From positions 62,001 to 126,000 of the forward strand of contig NZ_JACSRD010000146.1 of NCBI RefSeq assembly GCF_014879935.1: a DNA stretch of 64,000 nucleotides, given 5' to 3'. Origin of the DNA: Prosthecobacter sp. (GTDB lineage: Bacteria; Verrucomicrobiota; Verrucomicrobiia; Verrucomicrobiales; Verrucomicrobiaceae). The position numbers and the translations under genes are program-made. Of this stretch, positions 739 to 62,704 are shown piece by piece (positions within the stretch are counted from its first letter, which is position 1; every line of letters begins with the position of its first letter). Under the pieces are notes generated by a model. It made no database searches. It was not told the DNA's origin and worked only from the letters and a program-made list of their open reading frames with translations.

Positions 739-3700
739 TCACCGACGACGGCGACGCAGGAGGGCGATCAGGCCGAAAAGGACCAGCGTGGCCCGGCCCG
801 GTTCCGGCACCACGACGACAATGCCATGGCTGAAGAACAGGCTGGTGTCATAGAGCAGATCCGGCAGGCTCAGGTCCGGCAGCCCGAGGTCGCCCACGAG
901 GCCATCACCCCGTCCCATGCCGCCGGTGCTGAAGCCGTTGGGGTTCACGCTGGACCAGTCGAGCAGATTGAAGACATCACCAAAGACCGGCTGGTAATCA
1001 GCGCCATTGTCATTGGTGAAGCTGATGATGCCACCGCTGTTCATGGTGAAGGAGCCGGTCACGACGACGCGGTCGTGATTGCCGCCCGTCTGCGTGTCGT
1101 AGGCGTCGCCCTGGGTGGTGATCCAGGTGTCGAAATCGCCGGTCCCGAGGTGGAGGAGGAAATTGGCGGAGTCGTTGTAGTCAGCACCGTTGGTGGCACC
1201 CATCTGGAGGGTGAGTCGGGTGACTCCCGTCGCATCACCTGCCAGTTCGAGATTGCCGTTCACGGTGAAGGTGCCGATTGCATCGCCCGCAGTGGCGACG
1301 GAGGCAGGGTCGGAGGACATGCCGGGGCTGAGGAAGCCGGGGGAGCCACTCGTGCCGATGATGAATGTTCCAGAGCCCGTGGCCACGGTGCCGGCACCAC
1401 TGACGGGGCCGTTGAAGGTGAAGTCGCCAGCGTTGGAGGCGGAGAAATCGAGCGTGCCGGCCGCCGCGACCTCGATCCAGCTCGTGGAGGAGATGTCCGT
1501 GTCGCCAGCGAGGGCGAGTGTGCCTTCGGCGATGGTCGTCTTGCCGGTGTAAGTGGTGTTTGGATTGTCGAGTGTCACCGTTCCGGGGCCTTCCTTGCGA
1601 ATGTTGAGCGTGTCGCCGGGGTCTGCGGTGGTGATGGGGCCGGAGATGAGCACACCGCCGCCCGCGTCGTTGGAGGACGAGATCAGGGTCAGCTCGCGGA
1701 TGTTGTCCACGCCCGGAAGCGTGAGGTGCTGCAGGGTGATCGCTCCTGCGAACTCGGTGGTGCCGCTGGTGAAGGTGCCGCCGATGTAGGTGGCTCCGCT
1801 GCCGTTGGTGTCGTTGATGTCGATGTCGGTGCTGATGTAGAGATCCGGGACGGCGGCGATGAGGCCGACATCCGGGCCGGCATCATCGGCCAGCCAGTAA
1901 ACAGGATCCGTGCCGTCGCCATTGACGGTGGTGACGTCCGTCGTGGCCACAAAGAAACGGCCGCCAGCGTGCGTGGCACCGTGTGTGACGAGGATGCTGG
2001 TGCCGTAGAGCATTTCCGTGGTCTCATCGAAATCGGCCGCGCGCACGAGGTTCATGTGCGTGCCGGTGGGATCGAGGCTGACGATCTCGTAAACGCCATT
2101 GCGCTCGGGGTTGTTCCCCTCGGACATGACGAGGATGCGCCTGCCGATGTCGGCGGTGGTGATGACGACACCGTCCACGATGGTGGACACGTTCAAGAAG
2201 GCCCCGTTGCCGGCACCGCCAGCACCATTGCTCGCTTCATTGAAGCTGCCGCCCGCCGCCGCAGTGATCAGAGACCGTGTGGTGGCCAAATAGGCATCCG
2301 TGCCGAGCTCGCGGCGTGTGTCGCCCAGTTCCACGATGGTGGTGGAGAGGGCACCTGAATCAAAGAGGCTGAGCGTGCCATGACGCACGATCGTGCCGCC
2401 GTCGATGCCCGGACCCGCCGCCCAGGAGCCTCCGGAGCCATAGGTGTTGGCCACGTGCAGCTCCACGGTGCCCGCGCCGATCTTGATCAGCGGCAAACTG
2501 CCGAAACCGATGTCCATGATCATGTCACCAAAGCGGAAGACCGAGTCCCCTTCCGCCTGGAGGAACACATTCGTGGCGATGTCCTGATAGAGCGAAACCG
2601 TGCCGCCCGTGGCGAAGCCGTAGGTGCCCGAGGTGGCACGAGTGCCGATGACGGTGATGCCCTCGTCGTTGCCGTCGAAGTTGTTCATCACCACGGGATT
2701 GACCACGGCGTCGGCCGTGCCATCCAGCAGCAGTTCCACGCGGCCATCGACGGGGTTGATGGAGACGAAGGGAATGCCGCCGAGGTTGATCACATTGAAG
2801 GCATCACCAAACGCGGTGTTGCTGCCGCCGATCAGGGTGCCCTGGAGGACGCCGATGTTCGGCGTGACGAAGGTGTTGGCACCGGACAGACGTTGCGAGC
2901 CGGAGCCGATCTTGAAGACACCGCCGGCACCGGCGCCAGGATCGCCAAAGGCATCGGTCGTGGTGATGATGCCGGCGAAGTCGGCGTCGTCGGTGTCATC
3001 GCCGCCCAGATTGAAGATCGAGTTCTCGATGTTCACCGTGGCGCCACTGCCGCCGGAGAGCGATCCGATGGTCACATTGAAGCCGGTGCCCGCATTGTCC
3101 CAGAAAGGGCTCAGTTTCGCCCCGTCAGCGACGATGAAGCGGGAATAAGGGGAGAACGGGTTGTTCGAACCCGCGTAGAGGGTGCCTTGCTGGACAAGCG
3201 TCGTGCCGTGGTAGTTGCTGAACGTGTCGAAGGTCTCGCCACCGCCCGTGCTGGCACCGAAGACGGTCTCGCCAGCGCCGGTTTTGACGACGTTGAGCAG
3301 TCCCTGATTGTACAAGGTGCCGCCAAAGGTGAGTCCGTCCGCCATGCCGACGCCAATGTCCTGGAAGTTCACGCCGGACTGCGTGCCGGAGTCAAAAGTG
3401 ACTGTCACATCGGTGAACGCGGCGTTTTCGATCTTCGCCGTGGGCGCCAGGCCGGTGGCGCCGACGAACAGAAAGTTCTGCGTGAAGGTCTTGTTGATGC
3501 CCGCGAGCTGCAGGTGGCCCTGGGAGGCGAATTTCACCAGGTTGTCGTTCAGCGCATACACATTGCCGAGGCGGAGGATGGCGATGCGGTCCACATCGTC
3601 AGCGCCGTTGGTGTTGCTGTTGTTGGTGATGAGGAGATCGCCGGTCCAGGAGCGGTTGTCGCCATTGAGGCCGAAGATGGCGTTGATCACAAAGTCATCC

Positions 3701-6700
3701 ATCGCGCCGGTGATGCTGCCGTTGGCCGAGTTGGCATTGCCGCCCTGCGGGACGTTGGTGGAGATGTTGCCGGTGCCGGTGATGACGCCGTTGAAGTTGA
3801 TGAACACCGTCTCGGCATTGGTCGGAGCACCGACGGAGCGCGTGTCGTTGCGAATGTTCGAGGCGGTGGTGCTGTTGCTGTCACGCACGTCGTCCTGGTA
3901 GAAGAATTCGACGTTGTCATGGAGCGTGAGGTCGCCGTTGTAGTTCACCACGTCAGCGTGGGCCAGGTAGCGTGCGCCGATGCGCTTGAGCTGCGTGCCC
4001 GCGCCGGCGTCATGGCGCACGATGATGTCCTGCGTGATGTTCGAGACATCACGGTAGCCGCCTTCATCGCGGAAGAGCAACTGCACGGCGGTGTTGCCGG
4101 TGACGAACTCGCCTGCCAGCTCCGCTTCGAGATTGTGGCCGAGGATGATCGGCAGCGTGCCCACGCCGAGCGGATTGCCCGCGCTGAAGACGTCCACCGC
4201 GCCCTCGCTGATGATCAACTGGCCGGTCCATTCCGGATTGCTCTCGCGGATGCCCATGTAGCCGGCCCCGGCCTTCGTGATGCCGCCGTCGCCGGTGATG
4301 TAGCCGCCGGCGTCGTTGAAATAGACGGTGTCGCGGTTGTAGATGACCGTGGTGCCGGCCAGAGTCGCGGCCGTCTGGGTTCCATCGAGTGTTCCGGGGT
4401 TGCCGAGGCTGTCGAACTGCATGATGCCGCGGAAGTAGGTGTTGAAGTCATGCGGGTTCTCCGTGGTGTTCTCCGGTGCCAGGTCCAGGATGCTGCCGCC
4501 CTGGAAGGTGAACCACTCCTGGAAGACAAAGTTCTGGTTCGAGTTGTTCGCCACCGTGCCTGGATGCAACGCGAGCGTCGCGCCGCTGTGGACGGTGGTG
4601 CCGTCGAGAAAGGCGCTGTTGGAGCCGAACGGCGTCACGGTGGCAGCCGCCTGGGCCAGCGGCTCCCATTTCAGGGTGCCGGCGATCACGTCGGTGAGGC
4701 CGTTGTAGCTGTTGTTGACGCCGCGAAGGATCAAGGTGCCGTCGCCGGTCTTGTCGATGCGGCCCACGGCGGGATTCGCGGCATAACCGACGATCACATT
4801 GGCCTCGGAGACGATCACGCCGCCGTAAGTCAGCGTGGTTCCGGCGGCCACGTTGATCTCCCCGCCATTGCCGCCCAGCATGATGCCGCGATTCGCATCC
4901 AGCGACATGTCCGCCGTGGTCTGGAGCGTGCCGCCGTTGATGTGAATGCCGTCCGCCACGGGCGAACCGGAGGCCGTGCCGAGATTGGCATCTGCGGAGA
5001 TGCTCAAGGTGCCGCCGTTCAGGAAGGTGCGGCCGGTGTAGGTGTTGATACCCGAGAGAACGAGCTCGCCGGAACCGGTTTTGACCAGTGCATTGCCCGC
5101 GCTGCTGCCTGCATGGTCAGCGATGGCCGAGGCGATGGTCAGGGTGCTGCCACCATGCTGATGCACGATCAAATCCGCGTCCGCGCCGGCGCTGAGAGCA
5201 CCGCCCGTGATGGTTTTGGCCGATGCGGCGTTCAAAACGAGCGAGCTGACCATGATGCCGCCGCTGGTGATCTCCAATCCGCCCGCATCCACGGTGATGG
5301 TGCCTGCGGCATCCGCGTCAAAGTGGAGCGTGTTGACGACCGCGCCCGCACCGGTTGTTCCCGTAAAGCCGAGCAGCTCGCTGATGTCGTTGCCATTGGT
5401 CCATGTCGCGGCGGTGTCGTTGTTCTCGCGTGAGGCACCGGAGAAGGCGGTGAGATCGCCGGTCGTGGTCATGGCAAAGTCCAGCGCGTTCAGTGTGTAG
5501 GTGGCTGAGGCGGCGTTGTAGCTGTAGCTGTCGCCATAAGTCGCCCAGGCGATGGCGGTGCCATCCGCAGGAGCACCGGTGCCCAGCAGGCTCAGCACCG
5601 AGACGCCGCCGTTGCCGTTTTCGACGAAGTTCACCGTGCCGCCGGACATGCGGTTCAGGGCGATGGTGGCCGAGCCGATGTTCATCGTGGTGGTGCGGCC
5701 AGCCTTGGAGGTGACGATGACATCCGTGCCGCCGGGGGCGATGAGCGTCTGCGCGGCAGGAAAGGCGGCATTCGCCACGACCGCCGCGCCGGTGTAGTTC
5801 GCGGTTTCGTCCTGGATCGAGCTGGCGCCATCCATTTCGATGCCGCCGCCAGCCAGGGTGATCATCGCACCGGTGTCAAAGCGCCGGCCGGTGGCGTTTC
5901 CGTAGTTGGTGAGGCGCAGCAGGCCTCCGGACATGTTGAGCTGCTCGACATCGCCATTCTGGGCGGCTCCGTTCACGTCGTTCTGGCCGTTGAAGTTCAC
6001 GACGCCGCGTCCGATCTTGGTGAACGAGGTGTGGGAGTCCGAATCGGTGTCGTCCAGGCGGAAATTCAGCTCCATCGTGCCGCCGCCGGCCTGATAGACG
6101 GTGAGATCGCGCACAAACGCGTTCGCGGCATTCGATCCATTGAACACGACACGGTCCGTGCCGTCGCCAAAGGTCACCGTGCCGGAGCTGTTCGTGCCGG
6201 CCAGCATGTCATTGCCGAGCTGGTTGTAATCGTTCGTGCCATCACCGCCGATGTCGATGCGGCTGATGTTCAGCGCCTGTCCCGGCTTTGTCAGGATGAC
6301 TGCGGCGTTCCACAGGTTGCTGTTGCCGCCGATGCGGAGGCCGCTCTGGCCGTTCGCGGCGTTCATGTTCGCCGCCGCCTGCGGTGTCCAGAAGTTGCCC
6401 TCACCTTCGTAGCGCAGGATGCCGTTTTCGACGAAGATCAGGCCCGCGGCATCCCACTGCTGCCGTGCATTGACCACGGCCTGGTCGCTGCCGCGGATGA
6501 AGAAGCGCAGGAGCTGGTTCTCGTTGTCGCTGGTGACCGGCGTGGCGATGGCGCCGTTCGCGTTGTCATGCACCTGGCCGTTGATGTTGATCACGCCACC
6601 GGCCGAATTGATGCCGTTGGTGGCGATGAGACGCGCGTCGTTCAGCGAGGTGTCGGTGTTGATCGGATTGGCTAGCTCGTTGCCATAGATGTCGCCATTC

Positions 6701-24013: not shown

Positions 24014-25600
24014 TCATCGTTTCACGAACTCCTCCTCGCTCACCTTGCCGTCGTTGTTCTTGTCGAAGTTTTTGAAGCGTTGCGGGGCATTTTCCTTCTG
24101 CGCGAGGCCATTGGTGTATTCCTCCAGCGATAGAAAGCCGTCGCTGTTCTTGTCCCAGCGTTTGAAGGCGGCGGTGTAGTCGGTTCCGGGCTTTGAGGGC
24201 GTTTTGAGAGCTGGAGCGCGAGGGCGGCGGGCCGTGGGTGCCGGCGGATCACTTTGTTCGGGCAGGGTGGCTTTCCAGTTCTTGATGGCCGCGACCATCT
24301 TCGCGGTGCGATCGGGTTCGCTGGTGGCGAGATCGTGCTGCTGGCTGCGATCCTTGGTCAGATCGTAGAGTTCGACCTGCTTTTCATCGCGCGACATGAC
24401 GAGGGTATGGAAGCCATCGCGCATGGAGAGCTGCGGCCAGTCGTGATCATGGGAATTCGGGCCACGCCATTCCCAGAAGAGCGGTTGAGGACGTGTGAAG
24501 GCCTCGCCTTGGAATGCGGCGAGCACGTTGACGCCGTCGGGCTGATAGTTCGCAGGCATCGACACGCCGGTCGCGGCCAGCAGCGTCGGCAGCATGTCCA
24601 CTCCGGCGATGACGCTGGTCTTGTCCACGCGGCCTGCGGGCACATGACCGGGCCAGCGCACGAGGAAGGGCACGTTCACGCCGCCCATGTAGAGGCTGCG
24701 CTTGCGCCCGCGCAGCCCGCCGGTGTCGCCAACGCTGAAATAAAACTTCTGCCCTGGCTCCGGCATCGAATTCTCCGGCCCGTTGTCGCTGGAGAAGAGG
24801 ACGAGGGTGTTGTCGGCGATTTTCAACTCGTCCAGCAGCGCCAGCATGCGGCCGATCTGTTTGTCGGCACGAGTCACGGCGGAATAGTAGGTGCGCTGCG
24901 GCTCGGCGGTGTCGGGATACTCCTTTTTGTCCTCATCCGTGGCGGAAACGAGGTGATGCGTCTCATGCAGCCACAGGTTCACGTAAAATGGCTTGTCCTT
25001 GGCTTTGCGGATGAAATTGAGCGCATGATCCGTGGCCGCGATGGTCATGAATGACGCGGCGTGCTTGTCATGCGCATCGCCGGAGATTTTTTCGACGCTG
25101 CTGCCTTCAAAAACGCCCGCGCCGGGTCCAGTCCACGCACGGGCCTCATCGTAACCGTATTCGGCGGGCAGTGGCGGGCTCGTGTCCTTGCCCTGGCCGG
25201 AAAGATGCCATTTCCCGAAGTGCCCTGTCGCGTAACCCGCCTCTTTGAAGATACGCGAGAGCAGGGGCGCCTTCGGATCGAGCCAGTCCGGCATCTGCCG
25301 CGCCTCATTTTCCGCATGACTGGCGAAATGCTGATGCACACGATGCCTTGCCGGATACTGCCCGGTCACGATGGCGGTGCGGCTCGGTGAGCAGACCGGA
25401 TTGCACACGACGAAGTGATGAAAATCGGTGCCCTCCTTCGCGATGCGGTCGAGGTTCGGCGTCTTCAGGTGCGGGTGGCCGTGGCAGGCCAGATCACCCC
25501 AGCCCCAGTCGTCGGCGTAGATGAAGAGGACGTTCGGCCTCTCTGCGGCGGAGAGCGCATGAACGAGGGAAAAGCCAAGGAGGCAAAGGAAGCGGCGCAT
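24014..25600 (-). CDS. Secreted Cys-type sulfatase with C-terminal EF-hand pair
   Basis: Start taken at the ATG at 25600, which opens a signal peptide (MRRFLCLLGFSLVHALSAA); the ORF track start lies 108 codons upstream. The 528-residue enzyme has D30/D31 metal ligands in IYADDWGWGD and the formylglycine site C70-S-P-S-R. The GKWHL and SSDNGPE motifs of the alkaline-phosphatase-like sulfatase fold are also present. A Pro/Ala-rich linker leads to two EF-hand loops, DKNSDGFLSLEEY and DKNNDGKVSEEEF, at the extreme C-terminus. The EF-hands may bind calcium for stability or attachment. It would hydrolyse sulfate esters, probably from polysaccharides, outside the cytoplasm. The maturase (FGE or anSME) is not in the window. 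Confidence 0.93.
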   Translation of the reverse strand: MRRFLCLLGFSLVHALSAAERPNVLFIYADDWGWGDLACHGHPHLKTPNLDRIAKEGTDFHHFVVCNPVCSPSRTAIVTGQYPARHRVHQHFASHAENEARQMPDWLDPKAPLLSRIFKEAGYATGHFGKWHLSGQGKDTSPPLPAEYGYDEARAWTGPGAGVFEGSSVEKISGDAHDKHAASFMTIAATDHALNFIRKAKDKPFYVNLWLHETHHLVSATDEDKKEYPDTAEPQRTYYSAVTRADKQIGRMLALLDELKIADNTLVLFSSDNGPENSMPEPGQKFYFSVGDTGGLRGRKRSLYMGGVNVPFLVRWPGHVPAGRVDKTSVIAGVDMLPTLLAATGVSMPANYQPDGVNVLAAFQGEAFTRPQPLFWEWRGPNSHDHDWPQLSMRDGFHTLVMSRDEKQVELYDLTKDRSQQHDLATSEPDRTAKMVAAIKNWKATLPEQSDPPAPTARRPRAPALKTPSKPGTDYTAAFKRWDKNSDGFLSLEEYTNGLAQKENAPQRFKNFDKNNDGKVSEEEFVKR

Positions 25601-25791
25601 GGCGCGGGTAAACGCGGGTGAGGGCGGCTTTTTGCGCGCGATCCCACAGGCGGCCGCCGCACCCGGATCTGGCGGGAATCGATAGCCCGGGCAGGGGAGG
25701 CCGTTTGCCCCGTGAAAAAGCAGGCTTTCCCTATTTGCACTCGCGTCGATTGGGCGCATTCTGCGAGCCCCCTCCCCGTAAAAAAGCCCCA

Positions 25792-28557
25792 ATGAGTGCC
25801 TCACTCCCCTACCGCGCCAACGCGGACTTCCTCGAGTCGAAATACCTCGACTGGAAAAAAGACCCTGACTCCGTCGAGCCGCTGTGGTCGTCATTTTTTG
25901 AAGGATTCGAGCTCGGCATGGCAAAACTGGCCGCCCAGCCGGCCAAAGGAGGCAGCGCTGACAGTTCCGTGGCGCTGTCCGAGAAAACGCTGAGCTTCCG
26001 CATGCGGGTGACGAACGCGCTGCAGCATTTCCGCTCCCTGGGCCACACCGCCGCGCATCTGGACCCGCTCAGCACGCAGGGACCGGAGGTGGCCTCGCTC
26101 ACCGTGGCCGGGCTGGGCTTCACCGATGACGAGCTGGAGGAGGAGGTGCAGACGCACATGTATCGCGGCGGACAGCCGATGAAGCTGAAGACGATGCTGG
26201 CGGAACTGCGCGCGATTTACTGCGGGAAGACGGGTTTTGAGTTCATGCACATCCACAATCCGGAGGTGCGCACCTGGCTGCTGGACCGCGTGGAGGTCAC
26301 TGAAGTGGCAAAACCGGGCGCCAAGGAGCACATCGACGCGCTGCGCTGGCTGCTGGAGGCGGAGACCTTCGAGCGCTTCCTGCACCGCCGGTTCGTGGGG
26401 CAGAAGCGCTTCTCCGTGGAAGGTGGAGAGAGCATGCTGGTGGCGCTGGAGACGATCCTCGAAGGCATGCCGGCCTACGGCGGCAAGGAGATCATCATGG
26501 GCATGGCCCACCGCGGCCGCCTGAGCGTGCTGGCGAATTTCCTGCGCAAGCCGCTGGAGTATCTCTTCTACGAGTTCAGCGAGAACTACGTGCCGAACAT
26601 GGTCGCCGGGGACGGCGACGTGAAATACCACCTGGGCTTTGAAACCATGCGCGAGACCAGCGGCGGACACCATGTGGGTGTGATGCTCGCCCCGAATCCG
26701 AGCCATCTGGAGGCTGTCGATCCGGTGGTTGAAGGCATGGCCCGTGCACGCCAGCGCGCGCTGGGCGACACGGCCGAGCGGAGAAAGGTGATTCCCGTGC
26801 TGATCCACGGCGATGCCGCTTTTGCCGGCCAGGGGCTCGTCGCCGAGGTGCTGAATCTCTCGCAACTCCCCGGTTACCGCACCGGCGGCACCATCCATGT
26901 GATCGTGAACAACCAGATCGGTTTCACCACGCAGCCGGCGGATGCCCGCAGCTCCGATTACTGCACGGATGTGGCGAAGATGATCGAGGCCCCCGTGTTT
27001 CACGTGAACGGCGACAGCCCGATGGAGGTGATGCGTGCCGCGAAGCTGGCGCTCGAATTCCGCCAGACCTTCGGGCGCGATGTCATCCTGGACATCGTCT
27101 GCTACCGCCGTCACGGCCACAATGAGACCGACGAGCCCGGTTTCACGCAGCCGAACATGGCGCGTGCCATCGGCCAGCATCCGTCCACCGCCACGCTGTT
27201 CCGCCTGGATCTTGCCAGCCAGGGCATCCTGGACGAGGCCGGCTCAGCCGCGTTGCAGAAGGAGCTGGAAGACGAGCTGGAGCAAGGGGTGCAGACTCTG
27301 GCGGACAAGGACAAGTCCGCGAATGGCGGCAATCCTTTCGAAGGCAGCATGGCGGAGCCTCAGGCGGCTTACGATTACCATCCGGTCAAAACCGGAGTCG
27401 AGTTCCCCAGCCTCAAGGCGGTGGGCCAGCGGCTGCTGGAGACGCCGGAGGGCTTCAATCTGCATCCCACGATCGCCAAACGCTTCCTCGCGGCCCGCAA
27501 AAAGGCCATCGAAGCAGGAGAAGGCATCGACTGGGCCTACGCCGAATCGCTGGCCTTCGGCACACTGCTCACGGAAGGCCACGGGGTGCGTCTCAGCGGT
27601 CAGGACGTGCGTCGTGGCACGTTCAGCCATCGCCACAGTGTGTTCTATGACTCACAAACACGTGAGCGCTACATCCCGCTGAACAACCTGGAGGCCGAGC
27701 AGGGCCGCTACTGCGTTTACAACTCGCTTTTGTCCGAGGCCGCCGTGCTCGGGTTCGACTACGGCTACTCGCTGCTCGCGAGCAACCTGCTCGTCTGCTG
27801 GGAGGCTCAATTTGGCGACTTCGTGAACGGAGCGCAGGTCATCATCGACCAGTTCATCGCCTCCGCCGAGAGCAAATGGCAGCGGCCGTGCCACATCACG
27901 CTGCTGCTGCCGCACGGCTATGAAGGGCAGGGGCCCGAGCATTCCAGCGCCCGCCTGGAGCGATTCCTGCAGCTCTGCGCCGGCGGCAACATGCAGGTGT
28001 GCAATTTCACCACGCCCGCGCAGTACTTCCACGCCCTGCGCCGCCAGATCAAACGCGGCACGCGCAAGCCGCTCGTCGTGATGACGCCGAAGAGCCTCCT
28101 GCGCCATCCGAAGTGCGTCAGCAAGCTCAGCGACATGGCGGAAGGCACCACATTCCGCGAGGTGCTGGACGACGAGCACCTGCTGGGACCGGCGGAGCGG
28201 GTCACGCGCCTCATTTTGTGCTCCGGCAAGGTTTATTATGACCTGCTTGAGTTCCGCGAGGAGCACAAGATCAAGAACGCCGCCATCATCCGCATCGAGC
28301 AGCTTTACCCGCTGAACTACGAGATGCTGAAGGAGATCGTCTCCAAGTATCCGCGGGCGCAGAAGAAATGGATCTGGTGCCAGGAGGAGCCACGCAACAT
28401 GGGTGCCTTCTACTACATCCGCCCGCGCCTCGAAGAGCTCAGCAATCACAAGCTGCGCTACGCCGGCCGCGAGCGCTCCTCCAGCCCCGCCGCAGGCTCC
28501 AAGGCCATCCATGTTCTTGAGCAGGAGAAACTGGTCGAGGACGCCTTCAGCGTGTAA
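25792..28557 (+). CDS. sucA: 2-oxoglutarate dehydrogenase E1 component
   Basis: Start at the ATG at 25792 (MSASLPYRANADFLESKYLDW), giving 921 residues, which matches OdhA/SucA. The ThDP-binding region includes GDAAFAGQGLVAEVLN near residue 340 and NNQIGFTTQP near 375. The substrate-channel motif RRHGHNETDEP and a C-terminal transketolase-like pyrimidine-binding domain (RGTFSHRHSVF, LPHGYEGQGPEHSSARLERF) are also present. E1 decarboxylates 2-oxoglutarate and succinylates the E2 lipoyl group in the TCA cycle. It heads a unit with sucB, but two toxin-antitoxin genes lie between them. No E3 (lpd) gene follows. Confidence 0.97.
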   Translation: MSASLPYRANADFLESKYLDWKKDPDSVEPLWSSFFEGFELGMAKLAAQPAKGGSADSSVALSEKTLSFRMRVTNALQHFRSLGHTAAHLDPLSTQGPEVASLTVAGLGFTDDELEEEVQTHMYRGGQPMKLKTMLAELRAIYCGKTGFEFMHIHNPEVRTWLLDRVEVTEVAKPGAKEHIDALRWLLEAETFERFLHRRFVGQKRFSVEGGESMLVALETILEGMPAYGGKEIIMGMAHRGRLSVLANFLRKPLEYLFYEFSENYVPNMVAGDGDVKYHLGFETMRETSGGHHVGVMLAPNPSHLEAVDPVVEGMARARQRALGDTAERRKVIPVLIHGDAAFAGQGLVAEVLNLSQLPGYRTGGTIHVIVNNQIGFTTQPADARSSDYCTDVAKMIEAPVFHVNGDSPMEVMRAAKLALEFRQTFGRDVILDIVCYRRHGHNETDEPGFTQPNMARAIGQHPSTATLFRLDLASQGILDEAGSAALQKELEDELEQGVQTLADKDKSANGGNPFEGSMAEPQAAYDYHPVKTGVEFPSLKAVGQRLLETPEGFNLHPTIAKRFLAARKKAIEAGEGIDWAYAESLAFGTLLTEGHGVRLSGQDVRRGTFSHRHSVFYDSQTRERYIPLNNLEAEQGRYCVYNSLLSEAAVLGFDYGYSLLASNLLVCWEAQFGDFVNGAQVIIDQFIASAESKWQRPCHITLLLPHGYEGQGPEHSSARLERFLQLCAGGNMQVCNFTTPAQYFHALRRQIKRGTRKPLVVMTPKSLLRHPKCVSKLSDMAEGTTFREVLDDEHLLGPAERVTRLILCSGKVYYDLLEFREEHKIKNAAIIRIEQLYPLNYEMLKEIVSKYPRAQKKWIWCQEEPRNMGAFYYIRPRLEELSNHKLRYAGRERSSSPAAGSKAIHVLEQEKLVEDAFSV

Positions 28558-28568
28558 TCTGACCCGTC

Positions 28569-28769
28569 ATGAAACAGAAACTCACGTTCACCTATTGGCG
28601 CGATGGCGACTGGTGGCTCGGCTATTTGGACGAGTTTCCTGACCATTGGACACAGGGCGAGTCTTTGGAGGAGCTGAAGGTGATGCTCGCAGACCTCTAC
28701 AAGGACCTCACCAGCGGCGAGATCGCGGGGATCCGTCATCGGGGTGAGATGGAGCTCGAACTGGCATGA
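28569..28769 (+). CDS. hicB: HicB-family antitoxin (short form)
   Basis: A 66-residue protein with the HicB/UPF0150 partial RNase-H-like fold: [19 protein letters not shown], then [20 protein letters not shown]. It lacks the C-terminal DNA-binding domain found in longer HicB proteins. It should neutralise the HicA toxin encoded immediately after it. The stop of this gene overlaps the hicA start (ATGA), giving translational coupling. It begins 11 bases after sucA ends. Antitoxin-first order is seen in many hic loci. Confidence 0.87.
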
Positions 28770-28945
28770 AACGGCTCGACCTTATCCGCAGACTCGAAGA
28801 CATGGGTTGTTATCTCGTCAGGCATGGAGGCAATCACGACTGGTATCGCAATCCGGTCACGAATGTTGCGGATGCCATTCCGAGACACCGCGAAATCAAC
28901 GAGCATCTCGCCCGCAAGATCATCAAGAAGCTTTCCAACGACTAA
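28766..28945 (+). CDS. hicA: HicA-family mRNA interferase toxin
   Basis: This 59-residue ORF ([14 protein letters not shown]...KKLSND) is too short for the supplied track. It matches the HicA double-stranded-RNA-binding-like fold: an initial helix ending in a Gly, the strand [15 protein letters not shown] with the candidate catalytic H24, the strand [14 protein letters not shown] and a final helix. HicA toxins cleave mRNA in the cytoplasm until bound by HicB. The start overlaps the hicB stop, and the stop is 14 bases before sucB. By my hand count it is about 52% GC, visibly lower than sucA and sucB, which fits acquisition by transfer. Confidence 0.85.
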
Positions 28946-28959
28946 ACTCCCCCACGACC

Positions 28960-30054
28960 ATGGCTGACATCAAAATCCCCGCACTCGGCGAATCCGTCAC
29001 TGGAGGCCAGATCGCCAAATGGCACTTCAAAAACGGCGACTTCGTCAAAGTCGGCGACATCCTCCTGACGCTCGAAACCGACAAAGTGGCCGCTGAAGTC
29101 ACCGCCGAGGCCGCCGGCACGCTCAGCATCGCCAAACAGCCCGGCGACGATGTCGTCATCGGCGACGTCGTCGGCCAAATCGCCGAAGGAGCCGCTCCCG
29201 CCGTCGAAAAAGCCCCCGAAGCGCCCAAACCGGCTCCTGCCGCCGCTTCCGAGCCAAAACCGGAAGCGAAGCCCACCAACATCACCGAGTTTAAAGTCGT
29301 TCCGAAGCCCGAACCGACTCCAGAACCCGCCGCGAAGCCCGCGCCTTCCCCTGAAGGCCGCATCACGCGGAAGAAGATGACCCCGCTGCGCAAAAAGATC
29401 GCCGACCAGCTCGTCAGCGCCCAGCGCACCGCCGCGATCCTGACCACCTTCAACGAGTGCGACATGTCCAACGTCATGGCGCTGCGTTCCAAGCTCCAGG
29501 ATGCCTTTGTCGCCAAAAACGGCGTCAAACTCGGCTTCATGAGCTTCTTCATCAAAGCCGTGGTCGAAGCCCTCAAAGCCGTCCCGCAGATCAACGTCCG
29601 CGTCGAAGGCGATGAAATCGTCCATCAGCACTACTACGACATCGGCGTCGCCGTCGGCACCGAGCGCGGCCTCATCGTCCCCGTCCTGCGCGATGCCGAT
29701 CAGAAGTCCTTCGCCGAACTCGAGCAGGACATCCTCGGCTACGCCAAAAAAGCCAAGGACGGCAAACTTCAGGTCTCCGACCTTACGGGCGGTGTCTTCA
29801 CCATCAGCAACGGTGGCGTTTACGGTTCTCTGCTGAGCACCCCGATCATCAACCCGCCTCAGAGCGGCATCCTCGGCATGCACAGCATCCAGCAACGCCC
29901 GATCGCCGTCGATGGTCAGGTCGTCATCCGCCCGATGATGAACCTCGCCCTCAGCTACGACCACCGCGTCGTCGATGGCAAGGAAGCCGTGACCTTCCTG
30001 ATTCGCGTGAAGGAGTGCATCGAGAATCCCGCACGCATGCTCGTGGGAGCGTGA
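28960..30054 (+). CDS. sucB: Dihydrolipoyllysine-residue succinyltransferase (2-oxoglutarate dehydrogenase E2), E3-binding domain absent
   Basis: Starts at the ATG at 28960, giving 364 residues. The lipoyl domain (1-78) carries the attachment lysine K42 in [11 protein letters not shown] Pro/Ala/Glu-rich linker (about 80-145) leads directly into the catalytic domain, which begins at [18 protein letters not shown]. The active-site motif is [13 protein letters not shown], with H335 and D339. The peripheral-subunit-binding domain normally found between linker and catalytic domain, which holds E3, cannot be found. This explains a length about 40 residues below the usual 400. The catalytic core is otherwise complete. 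The enzyme transfers the succinyl group to CoA. It belongs with sucA, across the hicBA insertion. Confidence 0.95.
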
Positions 30055-61876: not shown

Positions 61877-62704
61877 CTAGCCGCGTGCGACGGTGATGAC
61901 CACTACTTTTTCAGCCCCGCCCTCCTGCCGCAGCACGCGGGCGCACTCGCTGGTGGTGGCACCGGTGGTGAAAACATCATCCACCAGGAGGATGCGACCA
62001 CCCTGGAGGGATGGAGGCCTGCGGCGGTAGCGTGTGCGCCGCAGCGCAAAGGCTCCGCGCAGGTTTTGCAGCCGCTCCTCGCGGTCGAGCCGCGCTTGGG
62101 TGTCGGTTTCACGGCAGCGGAGGAGGGCATCGCTGACGGGGATGCCGGTCGCTTGGCCCAGGCGCAGCGCCAGTTCGCGGCTTTGATTGAACTCGCGATC
62201 ATGCTCGCGGGAACGGTGCAGGGGGACAGGCACGAGCCGCCACGTGGCGAGGTCCTCGCCGGCCAGGCGCGGGTCGTCGAGCGTCTTGAGGAGCAAGGCG
62301 GCCAGGACACCGCGCAGGTGCAGTTTCCGCTCATATTTGAACTGATGCACCAGCTCGCGCACGGGGCCCTCCGCGCGGCAGGCGGCGATGGCGAAGTCAA
62401 ACGCGAGCCGCCGTCCGTCGCAGTTCATGCAGCGGAAATCGTGGGTGAAAGCGCCGTCATACATCTCCCCGCAGACCTTGCAGAAAGGCGGCTCCACCCA
62501 GGGCACCTCATCCGCGCAGGGCTGGCAAAACCAGGCCCGCATCCCGGCACGGGGCGCGTCCAGAGGCACCGGCACCTTGCACAGGCAGCACAGCCGCGGG
62601 TAGATGAGATCCAGCAGTCCGCCGAACACCGGGCGCAGCAGGCCTTGCAGACGGTTGGGCGCTGGCGGACCGGGGAAGGGCATGGCGCGAGGAAGGTCCG
62701 CCAT
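61877..62704 (-). CDS. comF: ComF-family phosphoribosyltransferase
   Basis: A 275-residue protein. The N-terminal region has Cys pairs typical of the ComF double zinc finger (RLCCLCK, CQPC, CKVCGE, CMNC). The C-terminal phosphoribosyltransferase domain has the PRPP-binding motif ILLVDDVFTTGATTSE and the upstream VPLHRSREHDREFNQS. ComF-type proteins act in natural DNA uptake in some bacteria, but the family is broadly conserved outside competence. The role here is inferred from similarity. It lies 141 bases upstream of accD on the same strand. Confidence 0.93.
   Translation of the reverse strand: MADLPRAMPFPGPPAPNRLQGLLRPVFGGLLDLIYPRLCCLCKVPVPLDAPRAGMRAWFCQPCADEVPWVEPPFCKVCGEMYDGAFTHDFRCMNCDGRRLAFDFAIAACRAEGPVRELVHQFKYERKLHLRGVLAALLLKTLDDPRLAGEDLATWRLVPVPLHRSREHDREFNQSRELALRLGQATGIPVSDALLRCRETDTQARLDREERLQNLRGAFALRRTRYRRRPPSLQGGRILLVDDVFTTGATTSECARVLRQEGGAEKVVVITVARG

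Follow-up and report, generated by a model that had tools for sequence, protein, structure and literature searches.

A hicBA toxin–antitoxin cassette lies between sucA and sucB, the E1 and E2 genes of 2-oxoglutarate dehydrogenase, in Prosthecobacter sp. We consider it probable that this is a functional Class 2 cassette embedded in the suc operon and expressed from suc mRNA, not from a promoter that it represses itself. The stretch of DNA analyzed (the window) comprises 64,000 nt and corresponds to positions 62,001–126,000 of the forward strand of contig NZ_JACSRD010000146.1 (assembly GCF_014879935.1).

The arrangement of the locus is summarized in Table 1. A preliminary description of this DNA had located a hicBA pair between sucA and sucB at spacings of 11 and 14 nt, and its coordinates turned out to be exact to the base. 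It had further remarked that one of the two genes is missing from the list of open reading frames, for which the length of the hicA product (59 aa against a listing cut-off of 60 aa) would account, and that hicA is lower in GC. The latter is borne out by values of 52.5% for hicA and 62.7% for the window, those of hicB, sucA and sucB being 57.1%, 63.6% and 61.8%, respectively. The start of sucA was placed at the beginning of the family match near residue 60 (about position 25792) of a frame that is open from position 25618. The stop of hicB and the start of hicA share an ATGA motif, by which translation of the two genes is presumably coupled. The spacer between hicA and sucB is similar to the 3′ portion of the uninterrupted sucA–sucB junction in relatives (AAACTCCC...ATGGCT).

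Table 1. Features of the sucA–sucB region, in positions of the window.
Feature	Description	Position	Strand	Basis
sucA	2-oxoglutarate dehydrogenase E1	25792..28557	+	NCBIfam PRK09404, 1203 bits
Spacer sucA–hicB	11 nt	28558..28568	+	sequence
hicB	antitoxin of 66 aa, short form, UPF0150-like; candidate partial RNase H fold; without DNA-binding domain	28569..28769	+	ORF, relatives, model
ATGA overlap	hicB stop / hicA start, 4 nt	28766..28769	+	sequence
hicA	mRNA-interferase family toxin, 59 aa	28766..28945	+	PF07927, model
HicA His24 codon	catalytic-type histidine	28835..28837	+	alignment
Spacer hicA–sucB	14 nt	28946..28959	+	sequence
sucB	dihydrolipoyl succinyltransferase E2	28960..30054	+	NCBIfam PRK05704, 496 bits

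Profile searches had been proposed as a check on both proteins. They were successful for HicA, which matches PF07927 with an E value of 3.9e-11 and 43.3 bits (curated cut-off, 27), and failed directly for HicB, whose assignment comes by way of its relatives. The HicA model (mean pLDDT 93.2) adopts a small dsRBD-like fold of a helix, three strands and a second helix (H-E-E-E-H), and superimposes on the solved HicA toxins 6hpb and 6g26 with TM scores of 0.75 and 0.83, respectively. His24 is invariant across all 44 aligned HicAs, and the equivalent residue (His23, His24 or His28) is required for the RNase activity of those HicAs that have been studied (PMC11594946).

HicB itself has no family match in Pfam, NCBIfam or PADLOC, and PDB sequence searches with the protein and with its profile returned nothing useful. 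Its identity is deduced from three observations taken together. First, 47 of 65 aligned relatives, which are 35–82% identical, match the UPF0150 family PF21748 (E≤0.1; best value, 2.3e-6). Second, the HicB model (pLDDT 94.8) consists of a single domain of three strands and one helix (b-b-b-a), and its top five fold matches, all weak with E≥0.2, include 6g1n, 3k6q and 2dsy, HicB antitoxins ranking first. Third, a HicB-like open reading frame lies directly upstream of hicA for each of 80 HicA relatives drawn from a genome collection. The claim that HicB is a short form devoid of a DNA-binding domain was upheld, as the 66-aa model has no room for a helix-turn-helix (HTH) or ribbon-helix-helix (RHH) element. 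Chance open reading frames were considered as an identity for hicB and hicA; the profile and fold evidence, together with conservation and purifying selection, rules them out.

Class 2 hicBA modules consist of hicB followed by hicA, with a HicB of 63–103 codons that is devoid of a DNA-binding domain (Gerdes 2024, PMC10865869). They are bicistronic operons and, by that account, make up the commonest arrangement of hicA; none has been analyzed experimentally, and how they are transcribed with a HicB unable to bind DNA is stated to be an open question (PMC10865869). Judged by its sequence, the pair between sucA and sucB fits this class in that the antitoxin gene comes first, HicB is small (66 codons), the genes overlap and HicA has the canonical fold. 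It differs from Class 2 as described in that genes of a metabolic operon adjoin it at distances of 11 and 14 nt and in that no promoter was detected; a text search of PMC10865869 yielded no account of a metabolic-operon setting in the text searched. With the classical hicAB systems of E. coli, Yersinia and Burkholderia (Classes 3 and 4) the pair shares the HicA fold with its catalytic histidine and possibly the partial RNase H-type domain of HicB. By contrast, those systems have the reverse gene order, a HicB with an HTH or RHH domain, and their own autorepressed promoters (PMC10865869, PMC11594946). TTHA0281 (2dsy) and TTHA1013 (1wv8), two short UPF0150/COG1598 proteins with a single small HicB-like domain, are among the closest fold matches of HicB, albeit weak ones (E>0.2) at a sequence identity of about 25%. 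The HicB and HicA proteins are ordinary members of Class 2.

A separate promoter and terminator that isolate the module had been named as an observation that would speak against transcription with suc, and neither came to light between positions 25300 and 30300. A scan of this region for the sigma-70 consensus, to which other promoter types are invisible, recovered nothing that resembles a promoter, where chance alone would yield 0.9 sites; of six terminator-like sites, none is on the plus strand. Two marks of a self-regulated type II toxin–antitoxin operon, a promoter-like site and a DNA-binding domain in HicB, are therefore both missing, the consensus scan on its own being weak evidence. We infer that hicBA is co-transcribed from suc mRNA. 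If hicBA, and perhaps sucB, were driven by a promoter within the 3′-terminal part of sucA, the operon setting would lose most of its meaning. Promoters within coding regions are common, and the restriction of the scan to the sigma-70 consensus leaves room for one. Nevertheless, we regard such a promoter as quite unlikely in view of the 11-nt gap between sucA and hicB, the lack of a consensus promoter, and a HicB that has no DNA-binding domain with which to repress it.

The order sucA-hicB-hicA-sucB recurs in three further genomes, all of the same family, one of them from the same genus (G063) and two from other genera (G022 and G006). Nearly all other genomes of the family that could be read at this place have a plain junction of 21–124 nt, including the nearest relatives of the window (G060, G040, G064 and G044). 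There are two exceptions. In a near relative (G031), the junction measures 284 nt (L004) and contains a hicB-like fragment with hicA gone; among all HicBs, this fragment is most similar to the suc-located copies in the window and in G063, and the junction likely represents a decay stage of the module found in the window. In the other exception (G002, L222), the junction has taken up a different piece of DNA, about 1.4 kb long, whose two open reading frames include one that apparently encodes a DKNYY-like lipoprotein.

Comparison of the window with G063 by the Nei–Gojobori method gave dN 0.16 and dS 1.01 for hicA (dN/dS about 0.16), dN 0.15 and dS 0.85 for sucB, dN 0.14 and dS 1.07 for sucA, and dN 0.11 with saturated dS for hicB; beyond G063, synonymous sites are saturated. 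These substitution patterns indicate that hicA and hicB are both under purifying selection. The synonymous divergence of hicA equals that of sucA and sucB, and the module has therefore been at this place for about as long as the window and G063 have been separate. Its low GC content is no sign of recent arrival because the copy in G063 is equally GC-poor (hicB, 52.5%; hicA, 49.1%). In a tree of HicB plus HicA, the window and G063 form one pair, and G022 and G006 form another. When the four suc-located modules were constrained to one clade, the log-likelihood was 19 units above that of the free quick tree (AU p 0.75), and a single origin is not contradicted by these sequences. On the SucA/SucB tree a single old origin takes at least 13 losses, whereas plain parsimony takes four gains. 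The equal synonymous divergence and the hicB remnant in G031 lead us to prefer one origin followed by losses.

The preliminary description had spoken of an insertion, and as a recent event this did not survive: the same module occupies the same site in three other genomes, and hicA has diverged at synonymous sites about as far as sucA and sucB. The check that it had proposed, whether relatives lack hicBA (insertion scar), showed the plain junction in most relatives and the module in three, and no clear target duplication is present. A recent insertion with a scar was rejected as a candidate on the latter ground and on that of a divergence matching the neighbors. Recent horizontal arrival, or repeated insertion into the same junction, is unlikely more generally. 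The lower GC content, the lack of the module in the nearest relatives, the four gains of plain parsimony and the different insert with two open reading frames (about 1.4 kb) that G002 carries at this junction would all agree with it. They are opposed by the synonymous divergence, by the pairing of the suc-located modules in the manner of their hosts, by the remnant in G031 and by the GC content of the G063 copy. All in all the module gives the impression of being old, under selection and frequently lost. The survey of locations was confined to places sufficiently close to the query; within it, no global HicA relative out of 80 lies at suc or pdh, save for L062, which is G063's own record, and neither order-level loci outside the family nor further phylum-level loci have E1 or E2 genes of suc or pdh as neighbors.

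Related Class 2 cassettes are embedded in other operons of the family, most of them metabolic. They are flanked by a metallo-beta-lactamase-fold gene and a 3-hydroxyisobutyrate-dehydrogenase-type gene in two genomes (G040, L238; G052, L239), and by an AP-endonuclease-2-type gene and a GFO/IDH oxidoreductase gene in another (G011, L241). A fourth genome (G004) has two cassettes (L240 and L061), one with a PSCyt1/FGE gene on one side and apbE on the other, and one between the gene for a sugar-binding protein and that for its ABC ATPase. If hicBA depends on host transcription, co-orientation with the neighbors is predicted. It was observed in 8 of 9 cases in the family; elsewhere in the order the count is 20 of 23, and for the global set it is 19 of 26, but co-orientation was not evident in a wider sample of the phylum (6 of 11, that is, 6:5). 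These counts rely on mechanical gene calls, include partly related loci and are restricted to places whose two neighbors share a strand and are no more than 300 nt away. Insertions that oppose the direction of an operon may simply be harmful, which would produce the same bias.

The spread over unrelated operons raises the possibility of a selfish addiction cassette that enjoys free transcription between needed genes and is costly to delete, without any metabolic sensing or regulation; loss of the locus would leave HicA unopposed for a while. Such a cassette would have the patchy distribution and the many apparent losses seen here; in keeping with it, sibling cassettes sit in unrelated operons and the same HicBA type occurs across many phyla. 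It also agrees with the finding that the HicA of the window is the only one in its genome. Less easily accommodated are the precise losses that left plain junctions, which addiction should make rare, and purifying selection on both genes over a dS of about 1, although addiction alone could bring about the latter. We consider this a serious possibility, albeit one that falls short of being probable.

A different hicBA is located directly behind pdhB in nine congeners (G026, G030, G033, G036, G052, G053, G056, G057 and G059; loci L042–L049 and L200), with aceF as the next gene in eight of them. In this cassette, hicB2 starts 12 nt past the end of pdhB and hicA2 comes next; in the eight genomes, aceF begins about 14–17 nt further on. 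Its HicA is about 50% identical to that of the window, and its HicB (72 aa) matches UPF0150 directly. In G057 a sulfatase gene takes the place of aceF behind the cassette, and in G052 hicA2 looks altered. The remaining congeners that were read have a plain pdhB–aceF junction of 42–80 nt or have aceF elsewhere. The pdh and suc cassettes are alike in their Class 2 architecture, in their position at the E1–E2 junction of a 2-oxoacid dehydrogenase and in their nearly equal spacing; they differ in HicBA subgroup and in the enzyme complex concerned. Two distinct Class 2 cassettes thus occupy E1–E2 boundaries of two homologous complexes, a coincidence whose significance is uncertain as it was found post hoc. 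By chance a few hundredths of a second E1–E2 site would be expected, a rough and likewise post hoc figure that assumes about 15–20 distinct sites in the family and a few E1–E2 junctions among a few thousand tight junctions.

In the genome from which the window derives (G000, contig C240), pdhB and aceF, adjacent in many congeners, are about 3 kb apart, and a PD-(D/E)XK transposase-family gene and a sulfatase gene lie between them (L313, about 2600–5000). Just upstream of aceF is a gene for a ParE-family toxin (L313:1980–2482; PF05016, E 8e-13) whose start is overlapped by a 68-aa open reading frame, a possible antitoxin gene. The pair is flanked by copies of the palindrome GGTCGCAAATTGCGACC, and homologues of this ParE are found at other places in relatives. 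In this genome a toxin–antitoxin pair is thus present upstream of both E2 genes, the ParE antitoxin being putative.

The recurrence at E1–E2 boundaries invites two further readings. One is that HicA cleavage, or translation of hicBA, tunes the polycistronic mRNA at this point and so sets the E1:E2 ratio. The presence of two different hicBA pairs at near-equal spacing in two homologous complexes would suit this regulatory role; yet most relatives lack the module, other cassettes reside in unrelated operons, and the HicAs known so far show no specificity for their own mRNA, all of which makes it very unlikely. The other is that selection favors hicBA at the E1–E2 boundary of 2-oxoacid dehydrogenase operons, where two unrelated Class 2 cassettes would have settled in the same geometry, and that release of HicA is tied to central-carbon transcription and growth arrest ensues when expression of the TCA cycle or of pyruvate dehydrogenase stops. 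This, too, we hold to be improbable; if true, it would mean that toxin–antitoxin modules are governed by a host operon and not by self-repression.

How might a cassette that is made from suc mRNA work? HicB would bind HicA and mask its active site, and the ATGA overlap would keep translation of the two genes coupled. As long as the suc operon is transcribed, fresh HicB would cover HicA. Upon a collapse of transcription, be it by loss of the locus, starvation or shut-off by a phage, HicB would be depleted first, provided that it is the shorter-lived partner, and HicA would then cleave mRNA. Neutralization of HicA by HicB, lability of HicB and shut-off as the trigger are assumptions of this model. 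The preliminary description had suggested that toxin dose could follow expression of TCA-cycle genes. Dose alone would not free HicA because toxin and antitoxin rise and fall on the same mRNA; release would take a drop in synthesis combined with faster decay of HicB.

It is tempting to see in this scheme a phage-defense device in which a strongly and steadily expressed operon supplies HicB until a phage stops transcription, whereupon HicB decays and HicA aborts the infection. Patchiness among close relatives, as displayed by the module, is typical of defense genes, and central-metabolism operons would presumably provide the steady expression. On the other hand, PADLOC has no match for HicB or HicA, and the immediate neighborhood is free of defense genes. 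A role of HicA in anti-phage defense, argued by Gerdes (2024, PMC10865869), counts for this interpretation, which on balance appears rather unlikely. On the evidence of sequence, the beneficiary may be the cell (by a shut-off sensor or phage defense), the cassette (by addiction) or the enzyme complex (by its E1:E2 ratio).

No report of hicBA in suc or pdh operons was found in the open-access literature. It is the setting that appears new: an old, selected residence in operons of central metabolism, which we did not find described, and this twice at an E1–E2 boundary. Cassettes that depend on a host operon would be one concrete answer to the question of how Class 2 modules are transcribed. If this holds true, control of the toxin lies with the promoter of the host gene, and it becomes possible to test how growth arrest responds to the expression of central metabolism or to its shut-off. 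Since some close relatives carry the module at this junction and others lack it there, they offer, together with the parallel case at pyruvate dehydrogenase, a good natural experiment.
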